A program made the translations under genes and the position numbers. A stretch of DNA of 64,000 nucleotides from NCBI RefSeq assembly GCF_006385555.1, contig NZ_CP041036.1, positions 4,278,001 to 4,342,000 of the forward strand, given 5' to 3'. The notes under the pieces are model-generated. The model was not told where the DNA came from, made no database searches, and worked only from the letters and a program-made list of their open reading frames with translations. The stretch is from Shewanella polaris. Its GTDB lineage: Bacteria > Pseudomonadota > Gammaproteobacteria > Enterobacterales > Shewanellaceae. Of the stretch, positions 56,449 to 62,211 are shown in pieces. Numbering within the stretch: the stretch's first letter is position 1; every line of letters begins with the position of its first letter.

Positions 56449-56574
56449 TTCGTTACTTTTTAACGATAGACGTTCATTTCAACACCATATTTGCATAACT
56501 TTACGCATCACGATCGGCAATTGACATTGAGAAGATTATATTAAGTAGTAACCTTCACTTGTACCGAGGTGTGT

Positions 56575-56769
56575 ATGAAAAAGTCAATTCAACTTCCGGT
56601 GATCAAAATGCTATTGGTGGGATTCGCAATGATAAGCTTGAGTGCTTGCGCTCCACTATTTCACCAAGGACATGCAAAAGCTCTGACGAATAAGACTGCA
56701 GTAACTAAAGTGATCGTTGTTAAACCAGATGTATATCGCGTCGTTAATGTTGATAACGTTCTTAAATAG
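56575..56769 (+). CDS. Small putative lipoprotein, unknown function
   Basis: 64 residues from the ATG at 56575, preceded by GAGG at about five bases. The signal MLLVGFAMISLSAC is a typical lipobox with lipidated Cys. The rest (APLFHQGHAKALTNKTAVTK) is short and basic, with a valine-rich end, and has no known domain. It is its own unit, with a terminator 42 bp after the stop. Confidence 0.65.
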   Translation: MKKSIQLPVIKMLLVGFAMISLSACAPLFHQGHAKALTNKTAVTKVIVVKPDVYRVVNVDNVLK

Positions 56770-56810
56770 GATATGGTCATTATTTGAAAGCGTTAAATGA
56801 CTCTACTATA

Positions 56811-56837
56811 AATGCCAGCTATGTTGCTGGCATTTTT
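56811..56837 (+). terminator. Intrinsic terminator after the small lipoprotein gene
   Basis: Stem AATGCCAGC-TATGTT-GCTGGCATT followed by TTT. Its stem sequence is nearly the same as that of the acnB terminator at 59154-59183, on the other side of the accessory block. Confidence 0.88.
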
Positions 56838-56893: not shown

Positions 56894-57237
56894 ATGGCCT
56901 ACGGCCACTAACGTCGTGGCGCTTCGCCCACACCAGACTAAGAGGAAACCAACGGCTGTTCCCTCTTAGAACTCCCAGCCGCCCCGCAACATTTTCAAAC
57001 AGCGAAAAGGTCGCCATGGGGATTTATCTAGCTTTTAACGTCGTTTGTAATCGGCTTCGGCCCATCTTGATGTAAAGAGTGAAAATGCTAACGCTTCCGA
57101 TGGTACATCTGATGTGAATGGATTCACGAATGTCGTGATGGCAGGATGCCAAAGAACGACCTGTACCGCGAAAGCTAGCCTGACGTCCTGTCAGGCTCAC
57201 GCTATTTTCTTCAACGGCCTCAAGTCCAGAGTTGAAT
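56894..57237. repeat. Left arm of a long imperfect inverted repeat
   Basis: The reverse complement of this arm aligns with 58711-59097. Matching blocks: ATGGCCTACGGCCACTAACG at the outer tip, the segment with CCAACGGCTGTTCCCTCTT, GCCGCCCCGCAACATTTTC, the CCATGGGGAT block, GAAAATGCTAACGCTTCCGA, and at the inner end TTCAACGGCCTCAAGT. Differences are mainly two indels of about 15 bases and an inner stretch where the mini-hairpins differ between arms. Confidence 0.85.
57104..57197. repeat. Mini-hairpin array in the left arm
   Basis: Overlapping or adjacent short palindromes: ACATC-T-GATGT (57105-57115), GTGAA-TGGA-TTCAC (57114-57127), CACGA-ATG-TCGTG (57125-57137), GGC-AGGAT-GCC (57140-57150), and AGCCTGAC-GTCCT-GTCAGGCT (57177-57197). 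Stems differ, but several loops share GGA/TCC. Confidence 0.7.
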
Positions 57238-57342
57238 CACACCCTTTGAAAGTAAAGTCTTTAACTCATTTATGCCCCGTTCCTTGTTAGCCTTTGAGAG
57301 CGCCGAATTTCCTGTTTCATTATTTGACTTACTTTTACTCAT
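57220..57342 (-). CDS. Possible 40-residue ORF overlapping the end of the DUF4238 gene
   Basis: The ATG overlaps the DUF4238 stop by eight bases. The product is a small hydrophilic, Ser/Lys/Asn-rich peptide starting MSKSKSNNETGNS, and its last codons run into the inverted repeat. There is no ribosome binding site, so it could only be made by coupled translation. It may be chance. Confidence 0.25.
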   Translation of the reverse strand: MSKSKSNNETGNSALSKANKERGINELKTLLSKGVIQLWT

Positions 57343-58342
57343 GCAAGTACGGTGTTGTATGGACTGTTTTAACAGCCTTGAGATTTGAACCAACAAACTT
57401 CTTATAAGGCTTAAGCGACTCCTCACGGTTGCCAATGATATGAAAATTCGCACGTTTGGCTATCTTGATATTCATTTCTTCTACAACATCAACTGACACT
57501 TGAACCTTGCCGCGTGGAAAACGATTTGATTTGTTTATCATGTAAGCAACATTTGGTGATATCGGATAGTAGAAATCACATTCATGATCTTTTGGTGGTT
57601 TAATCTCGTTGGTTAATGCTTGATGAACATTAACAATGGGCTGGTCAGAAGTAATGAACGGTGTATCTGTGTCATTGAGCAGCAGGCAATGAATGTCGTC
57701 TTTTCTGTCTAAGTAAAGTGATCGACCTAAGTTCATACCGAACATGTAACTAATGAACCACCAACACTCTAACGTTAACGTCTTAATATGATTGGCTGCT
57801 GTGTTGCTTATCGTATCTTTGAAGTTTTTAGTTCTCGCAATTTGTTGACCATAGAATTGCATGAACTTAATCATATTATCGTCTTTATCAAGTACCGATA
57901 AATTTCGATTTGCAAGCGCCTCTAGAGTTTCTTGAACTTCATTTTCGTGAGCTGTGTGATAGTTTTCAACACCGTTGCACTTCCAGGCTTCAATCATCTT
58001 ATCAGCGATTTCATCTTTTTTACCGCCTTGTTTATACAGCGATTCCAAGCATTGCATTGCTAGGTAATCACTTAGATAAGACATGTGCAGTTCGTGTAGG
58101 TCTTTATGGCTTTTTGACGACCATCTTTTGATTATTTGCACATGTTCAGGCGTAAGTGGTTTTACTTGATAAAAATCACGTTCAACAGCAATGTTTTTGA
58201 CACTATCGAAGCGAATATCGTTATTCTTCTTAGTCGTGTAATAAACCTGTTTGTTATCAGGCGACCATCGCTTCATATAGTTAGCCCATACATGATGATG
58301 GTTTTTCTTTGCTTCTAAACATTTTTTGTCGGTTTCAGCCAT
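57335..58342 (-). CDS. DUF4238-family protein, accessory gene
   Basis: 335 residues, no signal peptide, soluble. The pattern fits DUF4238: N-terminal HHHVWANYMKRWSPDN (family start, normally H-hydrophobic-P/A-Y-L/M-K-F/W), a helical middle, and FITSDQPIVNVH (about residues 229-240) with YPISPNVAYMIN, the family's TSD-P and later P-S/L-S blocks. The biochemical role of DUF4238 is unknown; members occur sporadically, often in variable regions. The ribosome binding site is strong (GGAGGG) and a 16-bp near-perfect palindrome lies directly upstream (58352-58367). It is the only complete gene inside the inverted-repeat block. Confidence 0.78.
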   Translation of the reverse strand: MAETDKKCLEAKKNHHHVWANYMKRWSPDNKQVYYTTKKNNDIRFDSVKNIAVERDFYQVKPLTPEHVQIIKRWSSKSHKDLHELHMSYLSDYLAMQCLESLYKQGGKKDEIADKMIEAWKCNGVENYHTAHENEVQETLEALANRNLSVLDKDDNMIKFMQFYGQQIARTKNFKDTISNTAANHIKTLTLECWWFISYMFGMNLGRSLYLDRKDDIHCLLLNDTDTPFITSDQPIVNVHQALTNEIKPPKDHECDFYYPISPNVAYMINKSNRFPRGKVQVSVDVVEEMNIKIAKRANFHIIGNREESLKPYKKFVGSNLKAVKTVHTTPYLHE

Positions 58343-58710
58343 ACGCCCTCCGTTGCACTAGTGTAACAAAAATCATTATAGATACAGAAAAGCTCCGACT
58401 TAGTAGAGATGAGGTTTTGATAAATGCGGAGCATTATAACGTTTTGGTTGATTTCGAGGTATTTGAAATCACAAGTATTTATCTGACATGAATTGTTGGA
58501 AGAAATCCACTTATTTAACTATCACTAAAACTCACCCAAAGACACTCTATAGCCAATTAACATGAAAGTTTAAGCGCTTGGGCTTTCCATAGAGCACTAG
58601 ATACTTCTGCGTTTTACCGCACCTCAATTAATTTATATTGTTCTAAATTAGTAAAATTTATAACACAGGAGTGTCCAAAAACGAGCTAGTCACTGCTTTA
58701 AAAAGCCTAA
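58343..58710. other. Non-coding spacer between the DUF4238 start and the right arm, 368 bp
   Basis: It contains the DUF4238 ribosome binding site and palindrome. A plus-strand open frame (about 58370-58491) gives protein-like sequence (TEKLRLSRDEVLINAEHYNV) but has only a TTG start inside DUF4238 and no ribosome binding site; it may be a relic. Nothing else is seen. Confidence 0.4.
58352..58367. promoter_or_regulatory. Near-perfect 16-bp palindrome upstream of the DUF4238 gene, possible operator
   Basis: GTTGCACTAGTGTAAC: the two halves match apart from one position. It ends one base before the ribosome binding site and could be a repressor site or a leader hairpin. Confidence 0.35.
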
Positions 58711-59097
58711 ATTCAACTCTGAACTTGAGGCCGTTGAAGACTCTCTATAAAAGAATAGCGTGAGCTGGCCATGGCCTTTCTCGCACATCCATGTGCTTCA
58801 AGGCATTCAGGCATCCTGCCTATCAGAGCCCGCTAGCTTTCGCGGTACAGGATGTACCATCGGAAGCGTTAGCATTTTCACTCTTTACATCAAGATGGGC
58901 CGAAGTCGATTACAAACGAAGTTAAAAGCTGGATCAATCCCCATGGCGACGTTTTCGCGCTGTTGTTTAAGTCAATCGGGAAAATGTTGCGGGGCGGCTG
59001 GGCCAATTATTTTATAAAGAGTAAAGAGGGAACAGCCGTTGGTTTCCTCTTGGTCTGGTGTGGGTGAAGCGCCACGACGTTAGTGGCCGCAGGCCAT
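58711..59097. repeat. Right arm of the long imperfect inverted repeat
   Basis: Pairs with 56894-57237 in inverted orientation. The inner end is ATTCAACTCTGAACTTGAGG and the outer tip is TTAGTGGCCGCAGGCCAT. It has extra mini-hairpins: GGCC-AT-GGCC (58767-58776), GCACAT-CC-ATGTGC (58783-58796) and AGGCA-TCC-TGCCT (58809-58821). Confidence 0.85.
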
Positions 59098-59153: not shown

Positions 59154-59183
59154 AAAAATGCCAGCATTTCTGCTGGCATTTTT
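59154..59183. terminator. Bidirectional intrinsic terminator after acnB
   Basis: 13-bp stem AAAAATGCCAGCA-TTTC-TGCTGGCATTTTT with A and T tracts on both sides; it would serve acnB on the minus strand, about 25 bp past its stop, and block reading from the other side. Confidence 0.93.
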
Positions 59184-59207: not shown

Positions 59208-61805
59208 TTAAAGCGCGGCTTGGAAAATCACGCTGTCGGCTTTCTTAGTGTAAGAATCGATTTGGTCGAAGTTCAAGTAACGGTAAGTATCAGCTGCAGT
59301 TGCATCTAATTCTTTAGCGTAGTTTTGATACTCTTCAACTGAAGGTAAACGACCCAATAGCGCTGCTACTGCTGCTAACTCAGCTGATGCTAAGTAGACG
59401 TTTGCACCAGTACCTAAACGGTTAGGGAAGTTACGTGTAGAAGTTGATACTACAGTAGCACCTTCTGCAACACGTGCTTGGTTACCCATACATAGAGAAC
59501 AACCAGGGATCTCAATACGAGCACCAACACGACCGAAGATAGCGTAGTAACCTTCTTCCGTTAATTGATCGCGGTCCATCTTAGTTGGTGGTGCAATCCA
59601 TAAACGAGTCGGTAATGTTGTAGCAAACTTTTCTAACATCTTACCGGTCGCACGGAAGTGACCGATGTTTGTCATACAAGAACCAACAAACACTTCGTCA
59701 ATCTTAGTTTGTGCAACGCTTGATAATAATACTGCATCATCAGGATCGTTTGGTGCACAAAGGATTGGCTCTTTGATGTCGTTTAAGTCGATTTCGATAA
59801 TTTCAGCATATTCTGCATCTTTATCAGCTTTCATCAACTCTGGGTTAGCAATCCATTCTTCCATCGCTTTAATACGACGTTCAATCGTACGACGATCGCC
59901 ATAACCTTCTGCAATCATCCACTTTAACATCACGATGTTAGAGGTTAGATATTCGATGATAGGCTCTTTGTCTAGCTTAATGCTACAACCTGCCGCTGAA
60001 CGCTCAGCAGATGCATCAGATAATTCAAATGCTTGTTCAACTTTAAGTTTTTCAAGACCTTCGATTTCTAATACGCGGCCAGAGAAAGCGTTGATTTTGC
60101 CTTTTTTCTCAACCGTTAGCAGACCCATTTCAATTGCTTTTAATGGGATAGCATGGACTAAATCACGTAAGGTAATACCAGGTTGCATTTCGCCTTTAAA
60201 GCGCACTAGCACTGACTCAGGCATATCAAGAGGCATAACACCTGTTGCAGCAGCAAATGCCACTAAACCAGAACCGGCTGGAAATGAAATACCAATAGGG
60301 AAACGAGTATGTGAATCACCACCAGTACCTACGGTATCTGGTAATAACATACGGTTTAACCACGAGTGAATAACCCCGTCACCTGGACGTAAAGCAACAC
60401 CACCACGATTCATAATGAAATCCGGTAGTGTGTGGTGAGTCGTAACATCAACAGGCTTTGGATAAGCCGCGGTGTGACAGAATGACTGCATGGTTAAATC
60501 AGCACTAAAGCCTAAACATGCTAAGTCTTTTAACTCATCACGTGTCATAGGGCCGGTAGTGTCTTGTGAACCAACAGAAGTCATCTTAGGTTCGCAGTAT
60601 TGACCAGGACGAACACCAGATACGCCACATGCTTTACCAACCATTTTCTGAGCTAAAGTAAAACCTTTATCAGAAGCGGCGATATCTTGTGGACGAACGA
60701 ATACTTTCGATGCTTCAAGACCTAAGGTTTCACGCGCACGGTCAGTAAGGCCACGACCAATGATCAACGGAATACGACCACCAGCACGAACTTCATCTAA
60801 CAATACTTCAGTTTTTAATTCGAACGTAGAGATGACTTCATCAGTGCCACCACGTTTAACAACACCTTCATAAGGGTAGATATCGATAACATCACCGGTA
60901 TCCATTTTATCAACGTTTAGTTCGATCGGTAATGCACCTGCATCTTCCATGGTGTTGAAGAAAATAGGCGCAATTTTGTTACCTAGACAGAAGCCACCAG
61001 CACGCTTGTTAGGAACAAAAGGAATGTCATCACCCATAAACCATAACACTGAGTTAGTGGCAGATTTACGTGAAGAACCCGTACCGACAACATCACCGAC
61101 GTAAACTAAAGGATGACCTTTACCTTTTAACGCTTCGATTTCTTTGATTGGACCCACAACACCTGATTCATCAGGCACAATACCGTCACGCGCATTTTTT
61201 AACATTGCTAATGCGTGTAGTGGAATATCTGGACGAGACCATGCATCTGGCGCAGGAGACAAATCATCAGTGTTGGTTTCACCAGACACTTTGAAAACAG
61301 TTAATGTAACTTTGTCAGTCAATTTTGGACGATTTAAGAACCAATCTGCATTGGCCCAAGCATCAACCACTTGCTTAGCAAAATCATTACCCGCTTGCAT
61401 TTTTTCAACAACATCGTGGTATGAATCAAACATCAACAAGGTATTAGACAGTGCTGTAACGGCTAAAGGTGCCAATTTAGCATTGTCTAGTTGGTCAATT
61501 AACGGCTCAATGTTGTAACCGCCTTGCATAGTGCCAAGCAGTTTAACAGCGTGTTCTGTGCTTAATATTGGAGATGACACTGTGCCTTTAGCTACAGCAT
61601 CAAGGAAAGCGGCTTTTACATAGGCAGCTTCATCTACTCCTGGTGGAATACGATTTTCGAGCAAGTCGAGGATGAATGCCTCTTCACCTGCTGGTGGTGT
61701 TTCAAATAACTTAACCAGTTCAGCCACTTGTTGTGCATTTAATGGCTTAGGGACTACACCCTCTGCAGCACGTTCTGCGACGTGTTTACGATATGCTTTT
61801 AGCAC
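59208..61805 (-). CDS. acnB: Aconitate hydratase B
   Basis: 865 residues, the same as in E. coli. Citrate to isocitrate in the TCA cycle, [4Fe-4S] enzyme. I choose the GTG at 61805: GAGGA lies about eight bases upstream and the protein then begins [15 protein letters not shown], matching AcnB; the longer open frame upstream does not. The cluster cysteines are in [17 protein letters not shown] and [14 protein letters not shown] promoter-like pair sits about 100 bp upstream. It is a single-gene unit. Confidence 0.97.
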
Positions 61806-62211
61806 GGCAACATTCCTCTTTGTTTGACGCCTAACGGCGAAACTCAACGTCATTATGATTACGCTGATAATTCCACTGGTTCGGGCTTGAAATCCGACCA
61901 CCAGTATACTACAGCTTTATAAAAGTATGAATCAGCTCACACTATTAGCGGTATGAAATCAACGCGATTTATCAACCTAACAATCAATTTAGCGGGAAGT
62001 TAAATAAATTAAAATTAGACAATAGTTTGAAACAGCCTAAAAAACACTTAAATACATTAACTTACGCAACACCCACTGATTAAACTATACACAATGAAAT
62101 ATCCACTTTTTTAAATGAAATATTTTTTAAAAAAGTGTGTTTTGATTGTGTCTCATCAGCAACAAAGTAATAATTAACGCTAAAGGTTATACCGTTTATG
62201 GAGCCAGTATT
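61806..62211. other. Intergenic region between divergent acnB and the HAD phosphatase gene, 406 bp
   Basis: It holds the acnB promoter candidate on the minus strand. The right half is AT-rich with runs of A and T and should hold the phosphatase promoter; I found no clear site or RNA structure. Confidence 0.5.
61903..61931 (-). promoter_or_regulatory. Candidate sigma-70 promoter of acnB
   Basis: On the minus strand TTCATA (-35 like, 61926-61931), a 17-base spacer and TATACT (-10, 61903-61908), about 100 bp before the acnB start. Confidence 0.45.

Follow-up and report, generated by a model that had tools for sequence, protein, structure and literature searches.

Within a window of 64,000 nucleotides from Shewanella polaris (contig NZ_CP041036.1, positions 4,278,001 to 4,342,000, numbered here from its first letter), we found that the block between positions 56894 and 59097 is one cassette slot of a genus-wide Shewanella system, in which a pair of structured arms marks a fixed site. 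In this slot the cargo is a single gene of the DUF4238 family, enclosed by two long arms in inverted orientation. The initial annotation, made from the sequence alone, had named the block the best candidate in the window for an undescribed element; it is not such an element by itself but one slot of this wider system.

The arms form a genus-wide family and face outward around cargo

The right arm of the block was used as a BLAST query against its own genome and 97 genomes of the genus, and gave 46 pieces in the own genome and matches in 83 of the 97. A covariance model, R1, was built from 18 arms of close and distant species. It gave 20 matches in the own genome at E<=1e-4, and at least one match at E<=1e-6 in 95 of 97 genus genomes, own included. 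In an order-wide draw, R1 matched 30 of 247 genomes and 9 of 87 genera, with 18 of those 30 genomes coming from Shewanella. When 33 bases of the outer end were searched against the genome collection, they hit 70 stretches, every one of them from Shewanella. The right arm had no match in the plasmid and phage collections. The repetition of the arm in the genome is far beyond chance. The 54 arms that were extracted measured 272-544 nt, each an ordered chain of hairpins.

We then studied 67 loci with model matches, which had been picked for their arms or as the orthologous window site. Among neighbouring arms on opposite strands, 35 pairs faced outward and 2 inward; a further 22 neighbours lay on the same strand. 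An open reading frame (ORF) of at least 120 amino acids (aa) was present in 32 of the 35 outward pairs, the remaining three (two at L178, one at L179) being nearly empty, with gaps of 122-208 bp. With the closest ORF of 120 aa or more on either side taken as the neighbour, the filled pairs lay between convergent genes (19) or between genes of the same direction (13), and never between divergent genes. The near-empty pairs (L178:2712-4035 and L179:5173-5843) have left and right arms of different type, and two of them stand head to tail, 52 bp apart.

The outward polarity was also seen beyond the genus, where 14 of the 15 loci around matches to the Rfam family RF01731 (TwoAYGGAY), from seven genomes, gave 7 outward pairs (L275, L277, L278, L279, L280, L282 and L287, all gamma-proteobacterial) versus 1 inward pair (L281). 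These 7 outward and 1 inward pairs sit in three genomes, two of them of one genus. Six of the outward pairs are spaced by 105-171 bp and one by 3.7 kb.

The cargo at other loci included AbiGi with an ORC/CDC6-like ATPase (L034), SIR2 (L125), DUF2971 (L089, L128, L114), DUF4238 (L037, L093), HEPN (L036), DUF5677 (L035), a weak Mrr match (L083), a caspase (L137) and DUF6119 (L136). Cargo of other types comprised GGDEF-EAL, a serine peptidase, an acyltransferase and an LprI-like protein, besides several proteins that matched nothing. PADLOC matched 10 of 30 cargo proteins versus 2 of 10 flanking controls; among the 30, L166 comes from another genus and stands beside arms, and L036, L037 and L128 have one or both arms partial. 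The difference is suggestive only, and we claim no enrichment of defence genes, because PADLOC includes generic models and the samples were small and hand-picked.

Several further arrangements were noticed among these loci. L162, L163 and L164 of genome G311 are repeat arrays without cargo, in which minus copies come first and several plus copies follow at a spacing of about 270-530 bp. L166:7286-8749 (genome G226, another genus) holds a KAP NTPase beside a repeat pair whose second copy is weak (E 0.005), and PADLOC groups this NTPase with the cargo of L113. At two different loci (L090:8784-10460 and L126:1971-3647), arms adjoin a 558-aa protein that two species share at 95% identity, as if the arms had also mediated a larger rearrangement. 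Carriage of arms by phages was rejected: two viral contigs end in an arm (L251:10714-10834 and L252:35-284) and look like a prophage in ssrA adjoining a chromosomal arm. On both contigs the arm stands beside a putative tyrosine integrase, and the sequence between resembles the ssrA end, although an ARAGORN scan found nothing.

The slot in the S. polaris window

The features of the block and its surroundings are as follows.

56569..56769, plus strand: left neighbour, a small lipoprotein-like gene, directed towards the cassette (ORF; orthologues 72-78% in L097, L098 and L100)
56810..56837, plus strand: terminator-like hairpin of the left neighbour, stem AATGCCAGC (repeat analysis)
56894..57240, minus strand: left arm, 347 nt, sense strand outward from the cassette (inverted-repeat blocks, family alignment)
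56894..56936, minus strand: outer-end module of the left arm (ATGGCC...CCAG), most conserved, hairpin-forming (alignments)
57335..58342, minus strand: cargo, DUF4238 protein of 335 aa (ORF, PF14022)
58708..59097, plus strand: right arm, 390 nt, sense strand outward from the cassette, with extra inserted modules (inverted-repeat blocks, family alignment)
59055..59097, plus strand: conserved outer-end module of the right arm (CTGGTGTGGG...GGCCAT) (alignments)
59154..59181, minus strand: terminator-like hairpin of acnB, same stem as on the left (AATGCCAGC) (repeat analysis)
59208..61901, minus strand: right neighbour, acnB, directed towards the cassette; the longest ORF is listed, and the true start probably lies inside it (orthologues about 93-98% in the relatives holding acnB)

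The two flanking genes are thus convergent around the cassette. No Pfam match was found for the lipoprotein-like gene (56569..56769), and the name acnB for 59208..61901 follows the initial annotation. The long inverted arms of that annotation (about 344 and 387 bp) were recovered as inverted blocks between 56894-57252 and 58696-59097, namely 108 nt (95%), 74 nt (96%) and 45 nt (82%), the last being followed by blocks of 23 nt (100%), 20 nt (100%) and 17 nt (88%); the family alignment sets the arms at the slightly greater lengths listed above. Its observation that the terminators of both neighbours share one stem was likewise confirmed, as was the lack of a recombinase inside the block, where apart from the DUF4238 gene (the one ORF scanned) the longest ORF has 85 aa and lies within the right arm. 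R1 matched the left arm at 56913-57208 on the minus strand with 136.8 bits and the right arm at 58752-59078 on the plus strand with 96.1 bits; these were the only strong matches in the window, the third best reaching 8.4 bits. The GC content is about 0.49 in the arms, 0.412 in the window and 0.377 in the DUF4238 gene.

The cargo protein matched PF14022 with an E value of 5.4e-18 and 65.8 bits (cut-off 27), and a GGAGG motif stands just 5' of its ATG, so that a single DUF4238 gene with its own ribosome-binding site is indeed enclosed by the arms. The protein had no match in PADLOC 2.0.0 or NCBIfam. A single DUF4238 protein elsewhere gave strong resistance to T7 (PMC9122126), and by analogy the protein in the window may act against phage. 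A search of 93 other genomes found close relatives of the window protein in 4, one of them a fragment with a stop. The relatives in G068 (74%) and G032 (65%) lie at other loci, each beside one diverged arm, and near the relative in G008 (52%) no arm was found by the arm profile or the covariance model. Two hairpins with ATGGAT loops near this last relative (L124:6044-6343) were missed by the arm model.

Cargo differs between species at the same site

We compared 20 relatives at the window site, 12 of which show both the DUF971 gene and acnB in the stretch. Among these 12, arms were present on both sides in G085, G025 and G077 and as remnants in G067 and G048, and none were detected by the arm profile in G055, G035, G063, G034, G031, G078 and G051; the gap in G063 is only about 206 bp. 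The cargo at the site is DUF4238 in S. polaris, DUF6236 in G085, an unknown 315-aa protein in G025 and an unknown 427-aa protein in G077. Differing whole-gene cassettes between the same conserved genes (DUF971/lipoprotein and acnB), the pattern that defines a minimal mobile element, were therefore found in four species. One arm at the G025 site carries an IS3-type insertion (L098), named by inspection. In distant species (G044, G039 and G042), diverged arms stand beside the same DUF971 gene with a different neighbour on the other side; in G044 and G039 one 195-aa gene lies between the DUF971 gene and the arms. The cargo there is a NACHT protein (G044), a KAP NTPase (G039) and a DUF2971 protein (G042). 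Taken with the different genes enclosed by the same arm family at other sites, the relatives without arms or with remnants support the captured-cassette arrangement of the initial annotation: the arms are not confined to this site, and the same gene and arms do not occupy it in all relatives.

At the left outer boundary, TTAACA/ATGGCC (the stroke marks the boundary) is identical to the base in five species (S. polaris, G085, G025, G077 and G048). The right outer boundary has two forms, GGCCAT/ATCTTAAATACAC in S. polaris and G025 and another in G085 and G077. By eye, arm sites elsewhere have no common target sequence, and repeated independent insertion at the same base is therefore unlikely. 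The simplest reading of these alignments is that a common ancestral arm pair was present and that its interior was replaced later.

The replacement was resolved best between G085 and G077, where the alignment extends through both flanks and both arms (identity 89.9% and 88.4% in the aligned pieces), the cargo differs, and identity falls to background at the inner arm edges. Between S. polaris and G085, the left arms agree over about the outer 48 nt; this breakpoint can be placed no more closely, since the outer module is common to nearly all arms.

Eight sites with a filled pair in at least two genomes were read: the window site, L035/L079, L075/L093, L077/L089, L036/L092/L128, L031/L087, L033/L083 and L076/L088, one arm being a partial profile match in L033, L036 and L128. 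The main cargo was unlike at 7 of the 8. L076 and L088 have one GGDEF-EAL protein in common (98%), with a flank match on one side only, and L077 and L089 have one small ORF in common, next to the right arm.

The arms are covarying hairpin chains related to TwoAYGGAY RNA

A consensus fold of 24 short near-clade arms comprised 81 pairs, 14 of which carried changes on both sides. In 18 diverse arms, the paired cells amount to 97.5%, and 15 of 29 pairs vary on both sides. Neither value was reached in any of 500 shuffles, and slid structures gave 34-49% paired cells; since the fold came out of this very alignment, the slide control is biased in its favour, and relatedness among arms can lift values above those of shuffles. 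The arms are chains of hairpins with strong compensatory change. The left arms of G085 and G077, which are orthologous, are nearly identical around the P2 hairpin but differ within it, on both strands together, and sequence comparison indicates that whole hairpin modules are exchanged between otherwise similar arms.

The predicted fold was more stable on the sense strand in all of the 32 arms examined, which are the shortest of the 54. After correction by shuffling, the mean z was -3.7 versus -3.5, so that the strands are alike and the excess is mostly a matter of composition. A strand preference of the fold was consequently rejected, and no inference is drawn on which strand acts.

The Rfam search of the window region gave no useful match at E<=1, the window arms lying below this threshold for RF01731. 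The gathering score of RF01731 is 43 bits, and the window arms, and likewise the loci L001 and L004 that hold them, fall short of it. Arms of the same architecture matched above the gathering score in L178 (G197, same genus) and L165 (G239, another genus), and below it in L034 (33.7 bits), L137, L141 and L163; the arm architecture of L034 (below the cut-off) and L163 aligns to RF01731. The loops of AYGGAY type in the window arms are variants, and P3 of the left arm carries an insert, both by eye. In a class-wide draw, RF01731 was found at E<=1e-4 in 16 of 321 genomes, with no match in the own genome. The core of the arms is related to TwoAYGGAY RNA. PMC2864571 lists TwoAYGGAY as a probable RNA that is probably not cis-regulatory and gives its sources as human gut, gamma-Proteobacteria and Clostridiales. 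Rfam types RF01731 (clan CL00106) as cis-regulatory.

Proposed homologous exchange through the arms and its rivals

We consider it somewhat probable that the cargo is replaced by homologous exchange through the arms, as in the minimal mobile elements of Neisseria. Two outward multi-hairpin arms, with a core related to TwoAYGGAY, would mark a fixed site behind convergent genes, and the accessory gene between them, often a single one of anti-phage or unknown type, would be replaced over time. For this, the arms would recombine homologously with arm-bearing DNA of another strain, species or locus and so serve as common homology handles. Arm-bearing DNA would have to enter the cell, an inferred step; a ComEC homologue in the own genome supports it weakly, as E. 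coli and nine other control genomes match too. One arm of the own genome, S2m, is chimeric, its outer part being nearest to the same site in G025 and its inner part to another site in G085. The nearest neighbour came from the same site and side for 9 of 35 outer arm parts and 9 of 35 inner parts, with one or two expected at random as estimated from the pool size. These comparisons indicate that arms are shuffled between sites as short-scale mosaics.

Several points weigh against homologous exchange as the full account. A model with inherited outer and exchanged inner parts predicts an outer excess, and the count of 9 of 35 was the same for both parts. The right outer boundary at the window site, having two forms, is not wholly inherited. 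Strong conservation of structure would be needless if the arms were mere homology handles. The arms beside the DUF4238 relatives in G068 and G032 are only weakly like those of the near clade (best profile E 3e-5 and 1e-7), and arm homology alone therefore fails to explain transfer between those lineages. All inference builds on one genome per species, and recombination itself was not observed.

The main rival is an enzyme that recognises structure. A dedicated enzyme acting in trans would recognise the folded arms as single-stranded DNA (ssDNA) or RNA and move or swap the cassettes, the arms being ends or attachment sites; we regard this as unlikely. It would account for the conserved hairpin chain with its compensatory changes, and the outward pairing resembles transposon ends, extending beyond the genus among the TwoAYGGAY matches (7 versus 1, in three genomes). 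The near-empty pairs at L178 and L179, with their short gaps, also speak for it, as do arms at many unrelated sites, which mean that the arms did spread. However, no target-site duplication was visible by eye at the window site, and the mobility genes inside filled pairs look like hitchhikers, each found at one to three places among the ORFs inspected. An arm pair with a transposase unlike a hitchhiker was not noticed among the 35 pairs, in which a part of the ORFs was scanned, and no duplication was seen by eye at the window site or the inspected arm flanks, where an old insertion may have lost it. On the same grounds the initial suggestion of a transposable element mobilised in trans was not upheld: a duplication was not seen by eye, the left outer boundary is inherited, and no enzyme could be tied to the arms. 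More doubtful still is the specific proposal of an undescribed system for cassette exchange that would recognise its sites by the folded arms, with ssDNA or RNA of TwoAYGGAY type directing the insertion and replacement of single genes, many of them anti-phage genes, at numerous outward-paired sites.

Known mobility systems were tried as the motor and rejected. The IS91-type transposase with a tyrosine recombinase, or IS1595, occurred among the cassettes read only in L031 and looks like a hitchhiker: L031:4119-8432 holds two direct copies of the tyrosine recombinase and IS91-type transposase in one cassette. A third copy of the tyrosine recombinase stands beside the chromosomal integron integrase of the own genome (708977-711112). 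An IS110-type gene, named by inspection, lies in one pair (L087), and L090 has a 98% copy of it that is not within a pair. A group II intron stands inside filled pairs in L079 and L083 and beside arms in L076, and none was noticed in the ORFs of the other filled pairs. At these three sites, which belong to two species, its reverse transcriptase lies 115-116 bp inside the arm in the same orientation (L076:8166-9797, L079:9722-11353 and L083:6278-7910). L139 has a related ORF close to an arm. The 3' end of the intron seems to abut one fixed position at the inner edge of the arm. The integron was set aside as well, its integrase being at 708977-709909 with no arms in the surrounding 18 kb (attC was not searched). 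Repetitive extragenic palindromes (REP) or bacterial interspersed mosaic elements (BIME) with a REP-associated tyrosine transposase (RAYT) were rejected on finding 0 matches to PF01797 (Y1 transposase) in the own genome at E<=0.001.

The arms might instead act as RNA, with transcripts of the cargo running into a 3' element like TwoAYGGAY that insulates, stabilises or regulates them, and with cargo turnover relying on the core genes at either side, just as for ordinary minimal mobile elements. Of 37 neighbouring pairs on opposite strands, 35 have the sense strand leading away from the cargo, the core is related to a family that Rfam types as cis-regulatory, and the fold was more stable on the sense strand in 32 of 32 arms. 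However, this stability is alike on both strands after shuffle correction, TwoAYGGAY is marked as probably not cis-regulatory in PMC2864571, and solo arms and near-empty pairs exist without cargo; we therefore hold this account to be improbable. The idea of the initial annotation that recombination between the inverted arms flips the gene is very improbable: inverted repeats of this length could in principle recombine, but the gene has its own ribosome-binding site, and both the GGDEF-EAL protein (L076/L088) and the small ORF (L077/L089) point the same way in the two genomes with respect to the flank that these share.

Meaning and comparison with known systems

Two outward arms of the Shewanella family mark the gene between them as a candidate exchangeable accessory gene, which gives a predictable map. 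Such genes frequently are of anti-phage type or have no known function, and new defence genes may accordingly be sought in the slots. The orphan Rfam RNA TwoAYGGAY gains a concrete genomic setting, and how single defence genes swap at fixed chromosomal sites without visible mobility genes becomes testable. If the folded arms were a recognition element, this would be the first function for the orphan family. In the open-licence literature, screened by titles and the starts of abstracts and hence a weak negative, we recognised no earlier description of the Shewanella arm repeats or of outward-paired covarying arms around slots; nor was a link between TwoAYGGAY and cassettes found there, no search having been aimed at TwoAYGGAY itself. 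What seems new here is the genus-wide occurrence of outward-paired multi-hairpin arms around slots, as cassette swapping without mobility genes is already known.

Mobile insertion cassettes, or passenger-carrying miniature inverted-repeat transposable elements (MITEs), hold a passenger gene between inverted ends with no transposase inside, and have short ends and target duplications in common with known insertion sequences (IS). In contrast, the arms of the Shewanella slots are long and structured and come with no known IS and no duplication that we noticed. With TwoAYGGAY RNA, arms such as those of L165 and L178 appear to share a closing stem and two hairpins with ATGGAT-type loops, which in the window arms are variants, whereas Rfam models 168 nt of unknown function and the Shewanella arms are longer and form outward pairs around cargo. 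Defence hotspots in P2/P4 prophages and in the cargo of Tn7-like elements resemble the slots in having a fixed locus and a variable anti-phage gene, DUF4238 being among their cargo (PMC9122126). These hotspots sit in a phage, satellite or transposon, whereas the Shewanella slot is a chromosomal gap between core genes without element genes.

The closest parallels come from Neisseria, where, according to PMC3898611, gene cassettes are swapped without mobility genes (minimal mobile elements), and mosaic repeats (Neisseria intergenic mosaic elements, NIME, consisting of RS plus dRS3) were proposed to promote exchange of adjacent genes. Minimal mobile elements are defined by the flanking conserved genes and between strains, whereas the cargo of the Shewanella slots is enclosed by dedicated inverted repeats that are structured and recur at many sites, and species rather than strains are compared. 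Minimal mobile elements are also taken up by homologous recombination alone; the inherited left boundary and the mosaic arms of the Shewanella slots would fit this, while outer and inner arm parts showed no asymmetry (9 of 35 each). NIME resemble the Shewanella arms in being mosaic intergenic repeats with a proposed role in the exchange of adjacent genes. However, dRS3 has 20 bp and the RS units 30-160 bp, whereas the Shewanella arms are covarying hairpin chains of 272-544 nt with a fixed polarity to the cargo.

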